From: Rhizobiales bacterium 62-17
GTDB taxonomy: Bacteria; Pseudomonadota; Alphaproteobacteria; Rhizobiales; Beijerinckiaceae
Direction: 5' to 3'
Length of the DNA stretch: 64,000 bases
NCBI GenBank assembly: GCA_001898965.1
Contig: MKVW01000009.1
Coordinates: forward strand, 1,656,479-1,720,478
How positions within the stretch are numbered: the first letter of the stretch is position 1; every line of letters begins with the position of its first letter. The notes beneath the pieces were generated by a model. That model was not told the origin of the DNA. It ran no database searches and was given only the letters and a program-made list of their open reading frames with translations. The position numbers and the translations under genes were made by a program. Below are positions 7,162-14,531 of this stretch, in pieces.

Positions 7162-7953
7162 TCAGAAGAATTCGTCCAAGAGCCGATAGAAACTCAATAA
7201 ATCAGCGTCTGCCTGCGCGCCGTAACGGCGCAGGAAGGGAGCAATCCAATTCTCTCCGAGATTATAATGAATGCTCCAGCTCGTCAGTGCCAAATCTTGA
7301 TGGCGATCCGCCACGCCCAGGCGAGCACAATCGATGAAGCCAGTGAAGCGATTAGCAGTGGCCATGAGATTGGGCAGGCAGGCATCGCCGTGGGTCACCA
7401 CCAGGTCTTCGCGGGCTGGACGGCGGCGCACAAGCTCCTCAAAAACTTTCGAAACGGGCCAGCCCAAACGCTCGTCATCGAAATCGCTCTCGTCGACCAC
7501 GCCTGCTGTCATCCGTGCTTCGGCCGCCGCGATACGGCGCTCAAGCCGCTGATCGAAGGGGCAGGCGGACGCATCGAGACGATGCAGATCGCGCAACGCG
7601 TCGGCAGCGATTGTGACAATCTGTTCCGCGGTCAAATGCGGCGAGGAGGCGAGGTCCTGGCCGGGCAGGGCCTGCATCAGCAGCCAATTGCGGGCACCAT
7701 CACGGCTCTCGTTCAAGACGTCTGGGCACGCTATGTCGCAGGCCCTTAGCCAGCGTAAACGCCGCGCCTCATCCGGCAATTCGCCGAACGCATCGGCTGG
7801 CTCCGTTTTGACGAAAAGTGTCGGCTTCCCGCTGGCCTCAAGCCGATAGATCGCCGCCGTCGAGCGGCCGATGGTCTGTTGTGTCCAGCGATAGCCGGCA
7901 AGATCGCTCTGCCAGCTTGGCGGCATATCGAGCGGGGCAAGGGTGTCGGCCAT
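7162..7953 (-). CDS. APH(3')-type aminoglycoside phosphotransferase
   Basis: A 263-residue kinase of the APH(3') family, which phosphorylates the 3'-hydroxyl of kanamycin-type aminoglycosides using ATP. The catalytic loop VTHGDACLPN places Asp190 and Asn195, and Asp208 follows in FIDCARLGVADRHQD; these match the positions of catalytic Asp190, Asn195 and Asp208 in the well-studied APH(3')-IIIa. The C-terminal DEFF ending is also family-typical. The length is normal and there is no sign of an integron or transposon around it, so it looks like a resident chromosomal gene. Whether it confers resistance, or phosphorylates another sugar-bearing compound, cannot be read. It points toward the Clp gene but is separated from it by about 140 bases. 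Confidence 0.9.
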   Translation of the reverse strand: MADTLAPLDMPPSWQSDLAGYRWTQQTIGRSTAAIYRLEASGKPTLFVKTEPADAFGELPDEARRLRWLRACDIACPDVLNESRDGARNWLLMQALPGQDLASSPHLTAEQIVTIAADALRDLHRLDASACPFDQRLERRIAAAEARMTAGVVDESDFDDERLGWPVSKVFEELVRRRPAREDLVVTHGDACLPNLMATANRFTGFIDCARLGVADRHQDLALTSWSIHYNLGENWIAPFLRRYGAQADADLLSFYRLLDEFF

Positions 7954-8280
7954 GGTCCTGCATCACATCCATGAAACGGCGGCCGTAAAACGATACCAAC
8001 GTATAGGTTCGCTACACCCTGGTGCCATTGACGGTCCTTGTCCTGGCGTTCACAAGGACTATGTCATTACGGCGTTAAGGCCTCGATTTATCGAGGCAAT
8101 CGACTGGAAAGGCAAATGGACAACGACCCGAGTAGTCGTCCGGCCGCGCCTTCAGGCTCAGGTCGGACTCAAAAACCCATTTCGACTGCTGCTGGCGCCG
8201 CCCGCCGGTTGAGCCTCGGCCAGGCTTAGTCCTGTCCCGCTCGCATCCGGGCCCGTGAGAAGCGGTCAAGGAGGTGAGCC
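7954..8280 (+). promoter_or_regulatory. gene-free leader region with three consecutive hairpins
   Basis: No gene is supported in these 327 bases. On the plus strand three inverted repeats follow each other: GTCCTTGT at 8034-8041 with its complement at 8052-8059 (8-bp stem, 10-base loop); GCCTCGAT at 8080-8087 with ATCGAGGC at 8090-8097; and ACGAC at 8123-8127 with GTCGT at 8135-8139. The region ends in AAGGAGGTGA at 8268-8277, a near-perfect ribosome-binding site for the next gene. The arrangement fits a structured 5' leader RNA controlling the ABC/MgtC operon. I could not match it to a riboswitch class from memory. The divergent APH promoter must also lie here. Confidence 0.45.
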
Positions 8281-8484
8281 ATGAACAACATCATTTTCTT
8301 CCCCCGCAAGGTTGCGGCCCCCGCGCGCGGCTGCGTCATCAAAGAGACGGTGCGGCCGGTGCTCGTCGCCGTCTGGCATCGCAACCCGGTCAACGGTCGG
8401 CTGGAATGCCATTGGGTCGCCGATCATGCGCCAGGCCACGGCGAAGGCCTGCGGTCCGGCACGTCGGATCGACGCGCGGCTTAA
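8281..8484 (+). CDS. 67-residue protein of unknown function
   Basis: I do not recognise this protein. The start is strongly supported by AAGGAGGTGA six bases before ATG 8281. It is small and basic, with a hydrophobic patch (PVLVAVWHRNP) followed by LECHWV with a cysteine and a histidine; there is no signal peptide or clear membrane helix. A perfect 13-bp hairpin begins 10 bases after its stop and the fused ABC permease gene starts 79 bases after it. Its position between a structured leader and a hairpin suggests it could be either a regulatory leader ORF or a small partner of the transporter. Both are inference. Confidence 0.7.
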   Translation: MNNIIFFPRKVAAPARGCVIKETVRPVLVAVWHRNPVNGRLECHWVADHAPGHGEGLRSGTSDRRAA

Positions 8485-8494
8485 ATTCATTCTG

Positions 8495-8524
8495 AAGCCT
8501 GGCCGCGCCTGCGCGGCCAGGCTT
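8495..8524 (+). terminator. strong hairpin after the 67-residue gene, possible attenuator
   Basis: Perfect 13-bp stem (8495-8507 pairing with 8512-8524) with a CCTG loop. No immediate T-run follows, only a T-rich stretch about 10 bases on (around 8531-8546). It lies between the small gene and the ABC permease gene in the same direction, so partial termination or attenuation into the transporter operon is plausible. Confidence 0.55.
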
Positions 8525-8562
8525 CGCTCTGCCTCTTTATGTTTTTGGTCTGAGGTCGATCC

Positions 8563-10323
8563 ATGGCTCTGCTGTCCGACGATCGTCGCCGTCCAAGCGC
8601 TGTCATTGCGCTGGCGCGTGCCCGTATCCTGCCCAATGGTTATGATCTCATTGCCTTCGCGCTGATCCTGGCGCTGGCCGTGCTGGCCGCGCACGGCATG
8701 CAGGCGATGCGTGCGCCGCTGGCCGTTCTCGACGCACAGCCGGTGACGCTCGATCCCTGGCTGCTGCCTGAATATGCCTTGCGGTCGACCTTGCGCATGT
8801 TCGCGGCAATCATCGCCTCGCTGCTCTTTACTTTCATTGTCGCGACGCTCGCCGCCAAGAGCCGCCGCGCCGAAATGGTGATCATTCCAGCTCTCGACAT
8901 CCTGCAATCGGTGCCGGTGCTGGGCTTTCTCACCTTCACGGTGACCTTCTTCATGGGGCTCTTCCAGGGCAACCAGCTTGGCGCGGAATGCGCGGCGATC
9001 TTCGCCATTTTCACCAGCCAGGCGTGGAACATGGCGTTCTCCTTCTATCAATCGCTGCGCACCGTGCCGCGCGATCTCGATGAAGTGAGCCGATCCTTCG
9101 GTCTGTCGGCCTGGCAGCGGTTCTGGCGGCTCGAAGCGCCTTTCGCGACGCCGGGGCTCATCTGGAACACGATGATGTCCATGTCCGGCGGCTGGTTCTT
9201 CGTCGTCGCTTCGGAAGCGATCACCGTCGGCGATACCACCGTGCGTCTGCCGGGGCTTGGCTCCTGGTTGTCTCTGGCCATCGAGAAGCAGGATTTCGCG
9301 GCGGTGGGCTGGGCGGTTCTCGCCATGGGCATTGTCATTGCTCTTTATGATCAACTGCTGTTCCGCCCCATCGTCGCCTGGGCCGATAAATTTCGCTTCG
9401 AGCAGACCGCGAGCCAGGAGAAGCCGGAGTCTTGGGTCTATTCATTGCTCACACGCGCCCATGCCCTGCGCCGCCTGTTGAAGCCGGTCGCTTACCTGTG
9501 GGGCCGGCTGATGTTGCTGCGCCTGTCGAAAAAGCCGCTGCTCGCCTTGAGCAAACGGCGCGACAACAAGGCGGCGAGCACCTTCATCGATTATCTCTGG
9601 CTGGCATTCATCGCCGCCGTCGGGGCCTGGGGCGTGTGGAGCGTCATCGGCTATCTCGGGCAGACGCTGGCTTGGGCCGATGTTGGCGAAGCCGTCGCCG
9701 GCGGCTTTGCGACCCTGCTCCGCGTGGTGGTGCTGATCGCCATCGCGAGCCTGATCTGGGTGCCGCTTGGCGTGTGGATCGGCCTGCGCCCGGCGCTGGC
9801 CGAGCGGGTGCAGCCGCTGGCGCAGTTCCTGGCGGCTTTCCCGGCCAATGTGCTGTTTCCCTTCGCCGTCGTCGCCATTGTTGCTACCGGCGCCAGCCCG
9901 AATGTTTGGCTGTCGCCGCTGATGATCCTGGGCACGCAATGGTACATCCTCTTCAATGTCATTGCCGGCGCCAGCGCCTTTCCGACGGATCTGCGCGAGG
10001 CCGCATCGGTCTATCGGCTGCGCTCGTGGACTTGGTGGCGCCGCGCCATTCTGCCGGGGATTTTTCCCTATTACATCACCGGCGCACTCACCGCCTCGGG
10101 CGGTTCGTGGAATGCCAGCATCGTCGCCGAAGTCGCGAGCTGGGGCGATACCAAGCTCGAAGCCTTTGGCCTTGGCTCCTATATCGCCAAGGCGACGGAA
10201 GGCGGCGACTTTCCCCGTGTTGTACTCGGCATCGCCGTGATGTCGCTGTTCGTCACCCTGTTTAACCGCACGCTATGGCGGCCGCTCTATGTCTTCGCCG
10301 AGCGTCGCCTGCGCCTCGATTAA
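8563..10323 (+). CDS. fused double permease of a NitT/TauT-like ABC transporter
   Basis: A 586-residue inner-membrane protein made of two permease domains in one chain. Each half has its own EAA-type loop that contacts the ATPase: DEVSRSFGLSAWQRFWRLEA in the first and REAASVYRLRSWTWWRRA in the second. Single permeases of this class are about 250-270 residues, so this is a genuine fusion rather than a read-through. The next gene supplies the ATPase. No periplasmic binding protein is encoded nearby, which is unusual for an importer. Downstream MgtC suggests a role linked to magnesium or acid stress, or the transporter may take up an unrelated anion. Substrate unknown. Confidence 0.9.
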   Translation: MALLSDDRRRPSAVIALARARILPNGYDLIAFALILALAVLAAHGMQAMRAPLAVLDAQPVTLDPWLLPEYALRSTLRMFAAIIASLLFTFIVATLAAKSRRAEMVIIPALDILQSVPVLGFLTFTVTFFMGLFQGNQLGAECAAIFAIFTSQAWNMAFSFYQSLRTVPRDLDEVSRSFGLSAWQRFWRLEAPFATPGLIWNTMMSMSGGWFFVVASEAITVGDTTVRLPGLGSWLSLAIEKQDFAAVGWAVLAMGIVIALYDQLLFRPIVAWADKFRFEQTASQEKPESWVYSLLTRAHALRRLLKPVAYLWGRLMLLRLSKKPLLALSKRRDNKAASTFIDYLWLAFIAAVGAWGVWSVIGYLGQTLAWADVGEAVAGGFATLLRVVVLIAIASLIWVPLGVWIGLRPALAERVQPLAQFLAAFPANVLFPFAVVAIVATGASPNVWLSPLMILGTQWYILFNVIAGASAFPTDLREAASVYRLRSWTWWRRAILPGIFPYYITGALTASGGSWNASIVAEVASWGDTKLEAFGLGSYIAKATEGGDFPRVVLGIAVMSLFVTLFNRTLWRPLYVFAERRLRLD

Positions 10324-10345
10324 TCGTCTTGCTGGAGAACCGAAC

Positions 10346-11668
10346 ATGAGCACCGTCATCACCCGCAAGGCCGATACGGCCACGCCGCTTGTCTCCGTCG
10401 CGCGGGTCTCGCAGATCTACGACAAGGGCGCGGCCGGTTCTCTGACCGTTCTGGAAAATGTCGATCTCGATCTTCGTCCGGGCGAAATCGTCGGACTGCT
10501 TGGCCGCTCGGGCTCGGGCAAATCCACCTTGCTGCGCGCCATCGCCGGTCTCGTGCGCCCCAGCAAAGGCACGATTTCTTTCGCTGGCTCGCCGCTCGTC
10601 GGTCCCACCGCGGGCATTGCCGTGGTGTTTCAAAGCTTCGCTCTGTTTCCTTGGCTCACCGTTCTGCAGAACGTCGAACTTGGACTTGAGGCTCAAGGGG
10701 TTTTGCCGGCGGAGCGGCGTAAGAGCGCTTTGGCCGCCATCGATCTGATCGGTCTCGATGGTTTCGAAAGTGCTTATCCGAAGGAATTGTCCGGTGGCAT
10801 GCGCCAGCGTGTTGGCCTTGCCCGAGCTCTCGTCGTTCATCCCCGCGTGCTGCTGATGGACGAACCGTTCTCGGCGCTCGATGTCTTGACCGCCGAGACC
10901 CTGCGTACCGATCTCATCGATCTGTGGACCGAGGGGCGCATGCCGATCGAGTCCATTCTCATGGTCACGCACAACATCGAGGAAGCGGTGCTGATGTGCG
11001 ATCGCATTCTGATCTTCGGCTCCAATCCGGGCCGGATTATCGCGGAAATTAGGGTCGACATGCCACAGCCGCGCAATCGCCTCGATCCGGCGTTCCGCAC
11101 TTTGGTGGAAGATATTTATGCGCGCATGACGGCAAGAACCGGCGCGCCGACGCGCGATGGTCATTTCCCTGGCACGGGCATCGGCATCTCACTGCCGGAT
11201 ATTTCCACCAACCTGCTCGCCGGTCTGATCGAAGCGGTGGCGGCCGAACCCTATCGCGGCAAGGCCGACCTGCCGCCGCTCGCCGCCGAACTACATCTGG
11301 AAATCGACGATCTCTTCCCGGTGGCGGAAACCCTGCAGCTTCTGCGCTTCGCCGAGCTTGAAGGTGGCGACATCAAGTTGACGGCGCCGGGCCTGCGCTT
11401 CGCCGGCGGCGACGTCGATGAACGCAAGCGGCTCTTCGCTCAGCATCTGGCGATCTATGTGCCGCTCGCCGCGCATATCCGGCGGGTGCTCGACGAGCGG
11501 CCCAGTCATCAGGCGCCGGCGCGTCGCTTCCGCGACGAGCTGGAGGACCACATGTCCGAAGACTATGCCGACACCACCCTAAAGGCGGTGATCACCTGGG
11601 CGCGTTACGCCGAATACTTCGCCTATGACGAAAACGCCGATCTCTTCACGCTCGAGAATCCGAGCTGA
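10346..11668 (+). CDS. ABC transporter ATP-binding protein with C-terminal AAA-associated domain
   Basis: A 440-residue ATPase that should power the fused permease just upstream. Residues about 1-260 form a standard nitrate/sulfonate-class ABC domain: Walker A GRSGSGKST, signature LSGGMRQRVGLARAL, Walker B VLLMDEPFSALD and the switch histidine in MVTHNIEE. The last 170 residues or so form an extra domain resembling the family known as AAA-associated C-terminal; its function is not established, and it may sense a ligand. ATG 10346 follows GGAGAAC; the open frame upstream of it belongs to the permease end. The pairing of this extended ATPase with a fused double permease is a repeatedly seen but poorly characterised transporter type. 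Confidence 0.9.
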   Translation: MSTVITRKADTATPLVSVARVSQIYDKGAAGSLTVLENVDLDLRPGEIVGLLGRSGSGKSTLLRAIAGLVRPSKGTISFAGSPLVGPTAGIAVVFQSFALFPWLTVLQNVELGLEAQGVLPAERRKSALAAIDLIGLDGFESAYPKELSGGMRQRVGLARALVVHPRVLLMDEPFSALDVLTAETLRTDLIDLWTEGRMPIESILMVTHNIEEAVLMCDRILIFGSNPGRIIAEIRVDMPQPRNRLDPAFRTLVEDIYARMTARTGAPTRDGHFPGTGIGISLPDISTNLLAGLIEAVAAEPYRGKADLPPLAAELHLEIDDLFPVAETLQLLRFAELEGGDIKLTAPGLRFAGGDVDERKRLFAQHLAIYVPLAAHIRRVLDERPSHQAPARRFRDELEDHMSEDYADTTLKAVITWARYAEYFAYDENADLFTLENPS

Positions 11669-11713: not shown

Positions 11714-12040
11714 ATGTTGAAAGATAAAGAAATCCCTTGTCGTGATCCTGTCATGTCCGTGCCTTTGCGTGGGGCGAAGGACGAACGTCCGGATCGAAAA
11801 GCTACAACACGGCTTTTGACCGAGCTGTCTCCGCAGGAGGCGCGAGCGTCATGGCTTGCGATGCGGACGTTCGTGCGAACCGGGGATCAATTGCTGCGCG
11901 TGACGGCGAAACTGTTTTTTCTCGGCGTTCTCTCCAAACCGCAGGCCTATCGGTTGATGCGCATTGCGGGACGTTTCACCGAAGCGGGCCTCGCCATTTC
12001 GCCGCGCCGCCGGCAGAACCGCTCTCATTCTGGACGTTAA
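11714..12040 (+). CDS. 108-residue hypothetical protein
   Basis: Not recognised. A basic protein with charged N- and C-terminal ends and a helical, mildly hydrophobic middle (LRVTAKLFFLGVLSKPQAYRLM). No signal peptide, no metal motif. A GAGAGG precedes ATG 11714 and the stop lies two bases before the mgtC start, so it probably belongs to the ABC/MgtC operon. It could be a small regulator or membrane-associated helper of either product. The coding call rests on its fit between two real genes and the ribosome-binding site. Confidence 0.55.
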   Translation: MLKDKEIPCRDPVMSVPLRGAKDERPDRKATTRLLTELSPQEARASWLAMRTFVRTGDQLLRVTAKLFFLGVLSKPQAYRLMRIAGRFTEAGLAISPRRRQNRSHSGR

Positions 12041-12042
12041 AG

Positions 12043-12771
12043 ATGTTGATGGGACTTGAACAAGCAACTCTCAATCTCGCTGTCGCCTTTGCCTTGGGCG
12101 CGCTGATCGGCTTTGAGCGCCAATGGCGCCAGCGCCTGGCGGGTTTGCGTACCAATACCTTGGTCTCGCTGGGCGCCGCGACCTTTGTCATGTTTGCCAG
12201 TTTGATTCCGGGCGAGGGGAGCCCGACGCGCGTCGCCGCGCAGGTGGTGTCGGGAATCGGCTTTCTGGGCGCGGGCGTCATCTTCAAGGAAGGGCTCAAT
12301 GTTCGCGGGCTCAACACGGCCGCGACCCTGTGGTGTTCCGCCGCCGTCGGCCTCGTGGCGGGGGCCGGATATCCCTTGCATGCCCTGCTGGCCACGGCCT
12401 TCGTCATCATGGTCAATCTGGCATTACGGCCGCTCATCTGGTTTCTCTCCCGTCATACGATGGAAATGACGGAACTGTCGGTACGCTACACCATCACGAC
12501 GATCTGCCGGAATGATGGGGAAGCGCATACCCGCGCGCTCATGCTGCAAGGCCTAAACTCCGCCAAGCTGCATCTGCACCAACTGCACAGCAGCAATATC
12601 GAGGATTCCGACCGGGTCGAAGTCACCGCGATCGTCACCGCCGACCATCGCGAAGACGCCGCGCTCGAACATATCGTCGGCCGATTGAGCCTGGAGCCTT
12701 GTGTCACAGCGGCCCGCTGGCGTGCCGAGGCTGTCGACATCGATCTGGCCAGCGCCGAAGCGGTCGGCTGA
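12043..12771 (+). CDS. mgtC: MgtC/SapB family membrane protein
   Basis: A 242-residue inner-membrane protein. The N-terminal part has the family pattern: ALGALIGFERQWRQRLAGLRT, then GIGFLGAGVIFKEG, RGLNTAATLW and further helices up to about residue 140. A soluble C-terminal ACT-like domain follows. MgtC proteins help bacteria grow in low magnesium and in acidic or host environments, in part by modulating the F-type ATPase. Start: ATG 12043, immediately after the preceding stop; ATG 12049 is an alternative. Being in one operon with an ABC transporter suggests joint control by cation stress; this is inferred from position. Confidence 0.9.
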   Translation: MLMGLEQATLNLAVAFALGALIGFERQWRQRLAGLRTNTLVSLGAATFVMFASLIPGEGSPTRVAAQVVSGIGFLGAGVIFKEGLNVRGLNTAATLWCSAAVGLVAGAGYPLHALLATAFVIMVNLALRPLIWFLSRHTMEMTELSVRYTITTICRNDGEAHTRALMLQGLNSAKLHLHQLHSSNIEDSDRVEVTAIVTADHREDAALEHIVGRLSLEPCVTAARWRAEAVDIDLASAEAVG

Positions 12772-12853
12772 GACGATCGATGAGCCGGCCCGGTTTTCAT
12801 CTCGCCCGAATGGGCTCTACCATCGGACTGCCGAAAAGCATAAGAAGGTAGAT

Positions 12854-13927
12854 ATGAGGCGCTGGCTGGCCCGATATTCCATCGACATGCCCCTGCTGTG
12901 GCTGGGGATCGCACTCTCGTCGCTGCTCATCTTCGTTGCCGACACACTGACGAATTTCGAGATCGCCTTTGCGGTGCTCTATGTCGCGGTCATTCTGTTG
13001 TCGGCCCGCGCTGGCCGGCCGCGAGCCGTCATTGCCGTTGGTATTTCCTGCGGGCTTCTGACCGTCTTGAGCTACGCGCTGACCCGCTATGGCAACCCGG
13101 ATTCCGGCCTGACGAATGGCGCCTTGAGCCTGCTCGCCATCGTCACGACCACCTATTTCGCTTACAGGAGCGAAACGGCGGAGGCATCGACCCGCGAGAC
13201 GCAAGCGGATCTCGCCCGCATGGCGCGCATCACCTCGATTGGTGAACTGGCAACCTCGATCGCCCATGAAGTGAGCCAGCCTCTGACCGCCATCGTCGCC
13301 AATGCCAATGCGGCCATGCGCTGGCTGGCTGCCGATCCACCACGTCAGGACGAGGCCAAGCAAGCTCTTAATCGCGTGGTGGCGGATGCGGCGCGCGCCG
13401 GCGAAGTGATCGGCCGTGTGCGCCAGCTGGTCGCCCGCGTTCCGCCCTCCAAGGTCGAAGTCGACATGATCGACGTGATCGAGGAAACCTTGGCGCTGAC
13501 CCGCGGCGAAATGGTTCGCCACGGCATCGTTCTGCGCACCGATCTGGCCGATCATCTCCCGGCTATCGTTGGCGATCGCGTGCAGCTCCAGCAGGTCGTC
13601 CTGAACTTCGTAGTCAATGCCATGGAGGCGACGCAGAAAAGTGAAGAGAAGGAAGTTCTGGTCAGCGCGGCGGCGGATGAGCGCAAGATCACGGTGAGCG
13701 TGCGCGATACTGGCATCGGCGTGCCCTCCGATGTGGCGGACCAAGTCTTCGAGGCATTCTACACCACCAAATCGACGGGCATCGGCATGGGGCTTGCCAT
13801 CAGCCGGTCGATCATCGAGGCTCATGGCGGCACCATTTACGTCGCGCCGAACTATCCCCATGGTGCCGCGTTTGGTTTTACCTTGCCGATCGCGTCGCGG
13901 GCAGAGGATCGATCGCGTGTTGAATGA
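12854..13927 (+). CDS. membrane sensor histidine kinase
   Basis: A 357-residue kinase. About four hydrophobic helices fill residues 14-105 with little periplasmic loop, then a short linker, a HisKA domain with phospho-accepting His138 in SIAHEVSQPL, and an HATPase domain (NFVVNAMEA N-box, DTGIGVP G1, GIGMGLAISRSI G2). The SIAHEVSQPLTAI form is typical of the FixL-like class. ATG 12854 follows AAGAAGGT. The stop overlaps the response regulator start, so the two are cotranscribed as a two-component pair. With no extracytoplasmic domain, the sensor probably detects a membrane or cytoplasmic signal. The target genes may include the ABC/MgtC operon just upstream, which is a guess. Confidence 0.9.
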   Translation: MRRWLARYSIDMPLLWLGIALSSLLIFVADTLTNFEIAFAVLYVAVILLSARAGRPRAVIAVGISCGLLTVLSYALTRYGNPDSGLTNGALSLLAIVTTTYFAYRSETAEASTRETQADLARMARITSIGELATSIAHEVSQPLTAIVANANAAMRWLAADPPRQDEAKQALNRVVADAARAGEVIGRVRQLVARVPPSKVEVDMIDVIEETLALTRGEMVRHGIVLRTDLADHLPAIVGDRVQLQQVVLNFVVNAMEATQKSEEKEVLVSAAADERKITVSVRDTGIGVPSDVADQVFEAFYTTKSTGIGMGLAISRSIIEAHGGTIYVAPNYPHGAAFGFTLPIASRAEDRSRVE

Positions 13928-14531
13928 AACCGTCTATATCGTCGACGACGACCCGTCCGTGCGCGAGGGGCTCGATAGCCTCCTGCGTTCAGCCGGTTAT
14001 GAGACCCATTGTTTCGCTTCGCCGCGCGAATTTCAGCTTCATCGCCGCGCCGATACGCCAAGCTGTCTCGTGCTCGACGTACGCATGCCGGGCGCCAGCG
14101 GGCTCGATTTCCAGGTCGAGCTTGCCCATGCCGATGATGCCATACCGATCATCTTCCTGACCGGTCATGGCGATGTGCCGATGTCGGTGCGGGCGATGCG
14201 GGCGGGTGCCATCGAATTTCTGCTCAAACCTTTCCGCGAACAGGATCTGCTCGACGCGATTCGCTTAGCGATCGAGCGTGACCGGACGCGTCGTGAAAGC
14301 GCGACCGTCGATAGTGAGCTCAACCAGCGCCTCAACACTTTGACGGCGCGGGAACGCGAAGTGATGGCGCTCGTATCGACGGGGCTCCTCAACAAACAGA
14401 TCGCCGGAGAACTCGGCCTGAGCGAGGTGACCGTCAAGGTCCATCGCGGCCAGGTGATGCGCAAGATGCAGGCGGCCACTCTTGCTGACTTGATTCGGAT
14501 GTCGGATCGTCTCGGGTTGTCCGTGAAGTAA
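13917..14531 (+). CDS. FixJ/NarL-type response regulator
   Basis: A 204-residue two-domain regulator. The receiver domain has the acidic pocket VDDD, phospho-acceptor Asp54 in LVLDVRMPG, the threonine in FLTGHGD and lysine in LLKPF. A LuxR/FixJ helix-turn-helix follows at about 140-195 (LTAREREVMALVSTG, SEVTVKVHRG). GTG 13917 is the earliest start consistent with the family; TTG 13920 is also possible. It overlaps the kinase gene by 11 bases, which strongly supports a cognate pair. The FixJ-like receiver and FixL-like kinase core suit each other, but the kinase lacks a PAS/haem domain, so oxygen sensing is not supported. Confidence 0.92.
   Translation: MLNETVYIVDDDPSVREGLDSLLRSAGYETHCFASPREFQLHRRADTPSCLVLDVRMPGASGLDFQVELAHADDAIPIIFLTGHGDVPMSVRAMRAGAIEFLLKPFREQDLLDAIRLAIERDRTRRESATVDSELNQRLNTLTAREREVMALVSTGLLNKQIAGELGLSEVTVKVHRGQVMRKMQAATLADLIRMSDRLGLSVK

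Follow-up and report, generated by a model that had tools for sequence, protein, structure and literature searches.

A predicted leader-peptide translational attenuator ahead of an ABC transporter/MgtC operon in a Rhizobiales bacterium, with relatives ahead of Mg2+ transport genes

Does the DNA ahead of an ABC transporter/MgtC operon specify a structured leader RNA and, if so, what kind of element is it? The window analyzed here is a 64,000-nt stretch from Rhizobiales bacterium 62-17. It contains, on the plus strand, a gene cluster in the order 67-aa ORF, permease, ATPase, MgtC, histidine kinase and FixJ-like regulator. A structured leader RNA had been predicted at 8034-8139. Our main reading, which we hold with a probability of about 70%, is that the region exerts two-layer control, with a regulator-driven promoter and a leader-peptide translational attenuator of an Mg2+-linked regulon.

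The three inverted repeats on which the original prediction was based are all present in the sequence. An inverted-repeat scan retrieved repeat 1 (8034-8041/8052-8059, 8 bp) and repeat 2 (8080-8087/8090-8097, a perfect 8 bp with a 2-nt loop). Repeat 3 is a 5-bp pair (ACGAC/GTCGT, 8123-8127/8135-8139) located by eye. Their density had been taken as a sign of selection for RNA folding. The folding of 8034-8139 mildly beats dinucleotide shuffles (z -2.17; 6 of 200 shuffles are equally good), and 37 of 604 sampled 106-nt stretches from the two strands of the window give equally low scores. Thus, the repeat density is unremarkable. Nor is the region gene-free, as had been assumed: a conserved ORF begins at 8116. 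In the nearest relative (G022), alignment reading finds 7 of the 8 pairs of repeat 1 and 6 of the 8 pairs of repeat 2 retained, with no compensatory change in either. In the nine more distant relatives of the upstream alignment, neither repeat can be seen. Both were dropped as RNA elements, conservation being absent among the aligned relatives; the third, however, overlaps a conserved helix (P1, see below). A structured leader before the operon does exist, but it lies at 8116-8280 and is mostly built from other stems. The ribosome-binding site that had been described as near-perfect is also real (AAGGAGGTG, about 8268-8276). This Shine-Dalgarno (SD) sequence serves, however, the 67-aa ORF at 8281 and not the permease at 8563.

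The upstream DNA was aligned for 11 sequences (the window, G022 and nine named loci from Rhizobium, Bosea, Mesorhizobium, Labrys and an unclassified Rhizobiales bacterium). With some exceptions, these share a palindrome, a TTGAC followed by about 17 nt and a weak -10, the ORF from 8116 and the 67-aa ORF. TTGA[CT] is kept in most of them. The predicted promoter of the window (8028-8056, plus strand) consists of TTGACG (8028-8033), a 17-nt spacer and a weak -10 element, CACAAG (8051-8056), and transcription may begin near 8063. Repeat 1 falls between the predicted -35 and -10, i.e., into the promoter spacer. If the promoter reading is right and transcripts start near 8063, this repeat is promoter DNA.

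The palindrome (CGATACC-AA-CGTATAG, 7991-8006, without strand assignment) has the form CTATACC-NN-GGTATAG in the upstream alignments of relatives. It is the probable operator of a FixJ-type response regulator, and the relatives' version is a candidate operator for this FixJ-like regulator subfamily. We analyzed 80 named permease loci, counting as adjacent a regulator with at least 50% identity to that of the window within the locus flanks. Upstream of the permease, a palindrome with at most three mismatches occurs in 13 of the 15 loci with an adjacent regulator vs 0 of the 65 without (Fisher 3e-13; the upstream flank is short at some loci, and the set consists of relatives). Of the two exceptions, L172 has a looser palindrome and L101 has none. 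The palindrome is not specific genome-wide at two mismatches (4 sites vs 6 reversed-pattern matches in the window's own genome, G000, and 3 vs 18 in G022), so that the operator claim relies on co-occurrence. The pairing of palindrome and adjacent FixJ-like system extends to distant relatives, with divergent gene arrangements among them (L124, L127).

The ORF that starts at 8116 (37 codons, 8116-8229, plus strand, MDNDPSSRPAAPSGSGRTQKPISTAAGAARRLSLGQA) recurs with identical start, stop and reading frame in G022 and seven relatives (L093-L096, L098, L100, L101). The Bosea loci L097 and L099 gave no such ORF. The leader ORFs of relatives differ by in-frame 3-nt insertions, which argues for translation. 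The middle of the peptide is weakly conserved as a protein: dN/dS is 0.5 against G022 and 0.5 to 1.2 overall, with low dS in the Rhizobium pairs. A pattern for the N-terminus of the window type matched once each in seven of the eight genomes searched, with 0 control matches. A wider scan revealed shorter related ORFs ahead of the permease, which start with MPSDSSRSNAP... in Sphingomonas, Caulobacter, Phenylobacterium and others, and with MDSPSSRS... in Azospirillum. Altogether, 38 leaders ahead of this ABC permease were gathered. They come from 31 of the 80 named loci, 5 of 29 other loci, the window and G022, and were picked by eye on consensus and spacing. L102, which has a TTG start, stayed outside the set though member-like, and the remaining filter matches were judged spurious. 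Counting L102, a leader is accepted in 32 of the 80 named loci; the other 48, among them Bosea, Xanthomonas and Bradyrhizobium loci, have none by the filter used. In all 38 leaders, 49-68 nt separate the stop codon from the following start codon, and Asp, which was not part of the selection filter, occurs by residue 4.

In the window and its close relatives, the leader RNA can adopt alternative pairings. Hairpin P1 (8118-8127 with 8132-8141, plus strand) involves leader codons 2-9 and was obtained from RNAalifold and pair counts on nine sequences. In the consensus structure of the nine-sequence alignment, a long hairpin extends from mid-leader to the SD (8179-8225 with 8229-8275, plus strand). 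Within it, antisequestor leader codons (8208-8214, plus strand) pair with an anti-SD, CGCTCGC (8238-8244, plus strand). Alternatively, the anti-SD can pair with the region around the SD and start codon of the 67-aa ORF (8268-8280, plus strand; pairing within 8270-8280). The covariation score of the consensus structure is 0.230 vs 0.181 in shuffles, and this score was reached by 0 of 500 shuffles, although the structure was derived from the same alignment that scored it, which favors the structure. Nine pairs show two-sided changes, and the structure collapses when slid. P2 together with the anti-SD/SD helix shows no excess covariation in this alignment (0.140 vs 0.156; 369 of 500 shuffles reach the score). 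On this basis, the combination of P2 and P4 was given up as the only conserved structure.

The anti-SD/SD duplex was compared with dinucleotide shuffles in individual leaders. For the window, the signal is weak (p 0.043). The duplex reaches p<0.05 in 18 of the 38 permease leaders and in 70 of 94 distinct leaders of the MPSDS type (see below) that passed a geometric filter; related leaders are not independent, so that pooled p-values are too small. The 94 were drawn from 138 MPSDS matches: a filter on peptide length or start codon removed 41, many of which are real leaders whose spacing is longer, and 3 were left out for being identical. An 8-of-8 anti-SD is found in 75 of 108 scored leaders (of 132; 24 were skipped, their SD being off pattern). 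Short leaders carry an SD-complementary segment about 13 nt past the stop codon and a very stable hairpin, often from mid-peptide to just 5' of the SD. Whole-leader energies are about -50 to -65 kcal/mol in ~130 nt. By computation, mutually exclusive RNA structures able to hide or free the ribosome-binding site are thus present.

The leaders of the short type occur ahead of genes other than the permease. The pattern ATGCCNAGCGAYAGT (MPSDS) was matched 138 times, in 106 of the 397 family genomes searched, vs about 10 reversed-pattern matches. Within 2.6 kb downstream are MgtE (56), CorA (13), DUF1003 (9), this ABC permease (5) or none of these (55). Example proteins for MgtE, CorA and DUF1003 were confirmed by Pfam. 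Many of the 55 unassigned matches keep the leader and SD geometry, and others are chance matches. We inspected 26 chosen loci. Downstream of unassigned leaders there is often either a protein of 50-110 aa, in which one long hydrophobic stretch was recognized by eye, or a protein related to the 67-aa one (L251, L266, L273, L303, also matched by the 67-aa HMM). A small hydrophobic protein sits between the MPSDS leader and corA in L247, L248 and L319. One such small protein (...DRSVALILLVMM.LVFAPVIGMH...) recurs after MPSDS leaders, alone or before corA (L247, L248, L249, L250, L319, L320 and others), and could be an Mg2+-related small membrane protein. DUF1003 genes stand behind MPSDS leaders in L225, L226, L233, L235, L252, L262, L326, L331 and L338 (PF06210 in the member tested), which suggests an Mg2+-linked role for this uncharacterized family.

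In named genomes of Rhizobium, Labrys, Bosea and Mesorhizobium, the leader precedes 5 of 6 loci from an MgtE clade that is at least 60% alike (the sixth, L349, matched in the C-terminal part only) vs 0 of 8 divergent MgtE. Variants with MPDDS (L347) and MPGDS (L354) were found. No leader was detected before corA at 30 loci in 12 genomes, where the ORF choice was crude. MgtE is absent from the window's own genome and from G022. The MPSDS match in the window's own genome is a frame without leader geometry, and the ABC operon is the sole known case of the leader there. Two DNA-level searches gave little. A long DNA motif of the leader had one weak match in 387 genomes of the class, the pattern being too strict, and GGCTCRCC-N22-50-GGTGAGCC recovered, in two genomes, the ABC leaders that were already known, its other matches being chance-like.

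The effect of a translating ribosome was calculated by masking the 5' part of the leader as a ribosome would, with the start codon as index 0. This was done for 123 short leaders (peptides of 14-23 aa from the 94 MPSDS leaders and 29 short permease leaders), with the nine long ones kept separate. The SD openness of the short leaders is intermediate without a ribosome (0.39). It is 0.52-0.56 when the P-site is at codon index 1-3 (0.43-0.56 at index 1-5) and 0.28-0.30 from codon index 7 onward. Early openness is up to 0.82 in CorA leaders. When codons 9-18 are scrambled, the curve is flat at 0.28-0.30. Openness is higher early than late in 86 of the 123 short leaders, and the reverse holds in 15. 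The window and its 37-38-codon relatives (nine leaders) show no opening near the first codons, and their SD is mostly closed (means 0.20-0.23). In the window, the SD opens only with a mid-ORF ribosome (0.56-0.70 at codon index 16-17). These model values suggest either that the window leader has a different switch point or that the simple masking model fails for it.

The following mechanism would connect these observations. At the level of transcription, the FixJ-type regulator encoded at the end of the cluster would act on the palindrome at 7991-8006 and drive the promoter near 8063. The mRNA would open with the 37-codon leader ORF, and the position of the translating ribosome would select the structure. 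In the OFF state, the anti-SD just past the leader stop would be base-paired to the next gene's SD. In the ON state, the leader codons would hold the anti-SD in the long hairpin and leave the SD free. For the short MPSDS leaders, a ribosome halted at the Pro/Asp start may give the ON state, and read-through past codon 7-8 the OFF state. Their first codons specify Pro and Asp, a kind of N-terminus by which ribosomes are destabilized under low Mg2+ in MgtL of E. coli and MgtQ of Salmonella. The leader ORF, the alternative pairings, their conservation and the regulon are supported by computation. Low cytoplasmic Mg2+ is the most likely signal, given that these leaders stand ahead of mgtE, corA and the ABC/MgtC operon. 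This link comes from the company that the leaders keep, i.e., from the genes found downstream. We infer that Mg2+ acts as the signal and that ribosome destabilization is a step in its action. The ON/OFF direction in the long-peptide subtype of the window is presumed to be as described.

The ribosome might instead respond to charged tRNA: a shortage of Ser-tRNA or Arg-tRNA would stall it at AGT-AGT-CGN (Ser/Arg codons), and the same pairings would then open the SD. The first nine leader codons are Ser-rich, an AGT codon is present in 38 of 38 permease leaders (AGT was part of the filter), and the SD of the short leaders closes at about the point where the ribosome passes the AGT/CGN codons. It is, however, most open already at codon index 1-3, ahead of these codons. 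In addition, GAC is paired with AGTCG in P1, which would explain why both are invariant, and the downstream genes are Mg2+ transporters rather than genes of Ser or Arg metabolism. We consider such an attenuator unlikely.

The original prediction had left room for an ion riboswitch, i.e., an untranslated RNA that itself binds the ion, with the ORF being incidental. Strong alternative structures and a regulon linked to Mg2+ would fit this. M-box and yybP-ykoY riboswitches are untranslated aptamers before Mg2+ or Mn2+ transport genes, and known metal riboswitches have a large invariant unpaired core. The alignments show no such core, and the leader is a predicted translated ORF with alternative RNA pairings. 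Its start, stop and frame are kept, the insertions among relatives are in frame, and MPSD is kept despite third-base changes at Pro. In Rfam 15, there was no match above the gathering cut-off for the window and eight related loci, in agreement with the earlier statement that no known riboswitch class could be assigned. This makes a riboswitch very unlikely, and we return to the translated leader. It is likewise very unlikely that the two ORFs of 37 and 67 aa simply encode ordinary small operon proteins, with the RNA structure a by-product of GC-rich coding sequence: the region is GC-rich and the 67-aa ORF evolves like a protein, but the 37-codon ORF does not, the anti-SD and covariation statistics exceed those of shuffles, and the same layout recurs ahead of unrelated genes.

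Most likely, the element is a translational attenuator of the leader-peptide type, belonging to a new family of an already known kind. Several Mg2+-related leader ORFs are described. In Salmonella, mgtQ is an 8-aa ORF between mgtC and mgtB, and its Asp2 and Glu5 are thought to destabilize the ribosome, releasing the mgtB SD (PMC8092293). The elements agree in having a short ORF, acidic residues near its start, alternative stems with the SD sequestered in one, and control of translation. They differ in bacterial class, peptide and length (15-38 codons here vs 8 in mgtQ); moreover, the leader described here heads the mRNA instead of lying between genes and recurs before several kinds of genes. 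For mgtL of mgtA, inefficient leader translation at low Mg2+ turns the gene on (PMC11282234, PMC11552253). Its peptide start has Asp/Glu and Pro, similar to the acidic and Pro residues here, but mgtL acts via Rho-dependent termination, whereas the apparent target here is the SD of the next ORF. Translation of corL, a leader ORF of corA, is inversely related to corA expression (PMC11552253), and some members of our family likewise precede corA; corL, however, acts by Rho-dependent termination and has another peptide, and our leaders also stand before mgtE, DUF1003 and the ABC operon. The mgtM/mgtP leader of Salmonella mgtCBR, also a leader ORF before an operon with mgtC, attenuates transcription in response to ATP and proline-charged tRNA (PMC3641672).

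The family thus has features of the MgtQ/MgtL/CorL kind, with a short ORF in the leader of an Mg2+ transport gene (mgtE, corA) and acidic or proline residues near the peptide start. A leader peptide of this family before alphaproteobacterial mgtE or corA was not found reported in open-licence PMC papers. The leader peptides reported for Caulobacter in the consulted portion of PMC4117421 include none of the MPSDS/MD family, and a term search in the main text of PMC10117765 gave neither "mgtE" nor "magnesium".

We consider the odds to lie slightly in favor of a broader proposal, namely that in Alphaproteobacteria an Mg2+-sensing class of leader peptides, comprising the MPSDS type together with the window's longer MD type, gates translation of a whole regulon. 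The proposed regulon comprises mgtE, corA, DUF1003, small putative membrane proteins, proteins of the 67-aa type and the ABC transporter without an apparent binding protein. If this is true, the orphan ABC transporter is an Mg2+-linked transport system. Mg2+ leader ORFs are known from enterobacteria, and the same logic would be used with other peptides in Rhizobiales and in Sphingomonas, Caulobacter and Azospirillum relatives. A candidate Mg2+ regulon provides a context in which hypotheses on the orphan ABC transporter, on DUF1003 and on several tiny-protein families can be tested. It also raises the question of whether acidic N-termini that destabilize the ribosome are a general means of sensing Mg2+ that has evolved repeatedly.

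The genes of the cluster fit into this picture as follows. The 67-aa protein (MNNIIFFP...RPVLVAVWHRNPVNGRLECHW, 8281-8484, plus strand) would be the first gene under the predicted switch. It is found upstream of the permease in relatives, and its dN/dS is 0.31 against G022. The ABC permease (8563-10323, plus strand) is NitT/TauT-like with two BPD_transp_1 stretches (Pfam, NCBIfam), and the ABC ATPase (10289-11668, plus strand) has an AAA_assoc_C domain (Pfam). The MgtC family protein (11851-12771, plus strand; Pfam) probably has its true start further in. A histidine kinase (12701-13927) and the ORF for the FixJ-like response regulator (13731-14531) follow on the plus strand (Pfam, NCBIfam). 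MgtC-family genes are near the permease/ATPase pair, in varying positions, in 9 of the 80 named loci (L103, L112, L114, L115, L120, L122, L129, L154, L161), so that the association is recurrent.

Two further observations concern the surroundings. A divergent gene of the APH family (phosphotransferase; 7162-7953, minus strand) adjoins the operon promoter and has no match in the 80 named permease loci. Between the 67-aa ORF and the permease is a perfect 15-bp inverted repeat (8494-8525) with no adjoining T run. In G022, the same gap holds an equally strong hairpin of different sequence, and other relatives vary.
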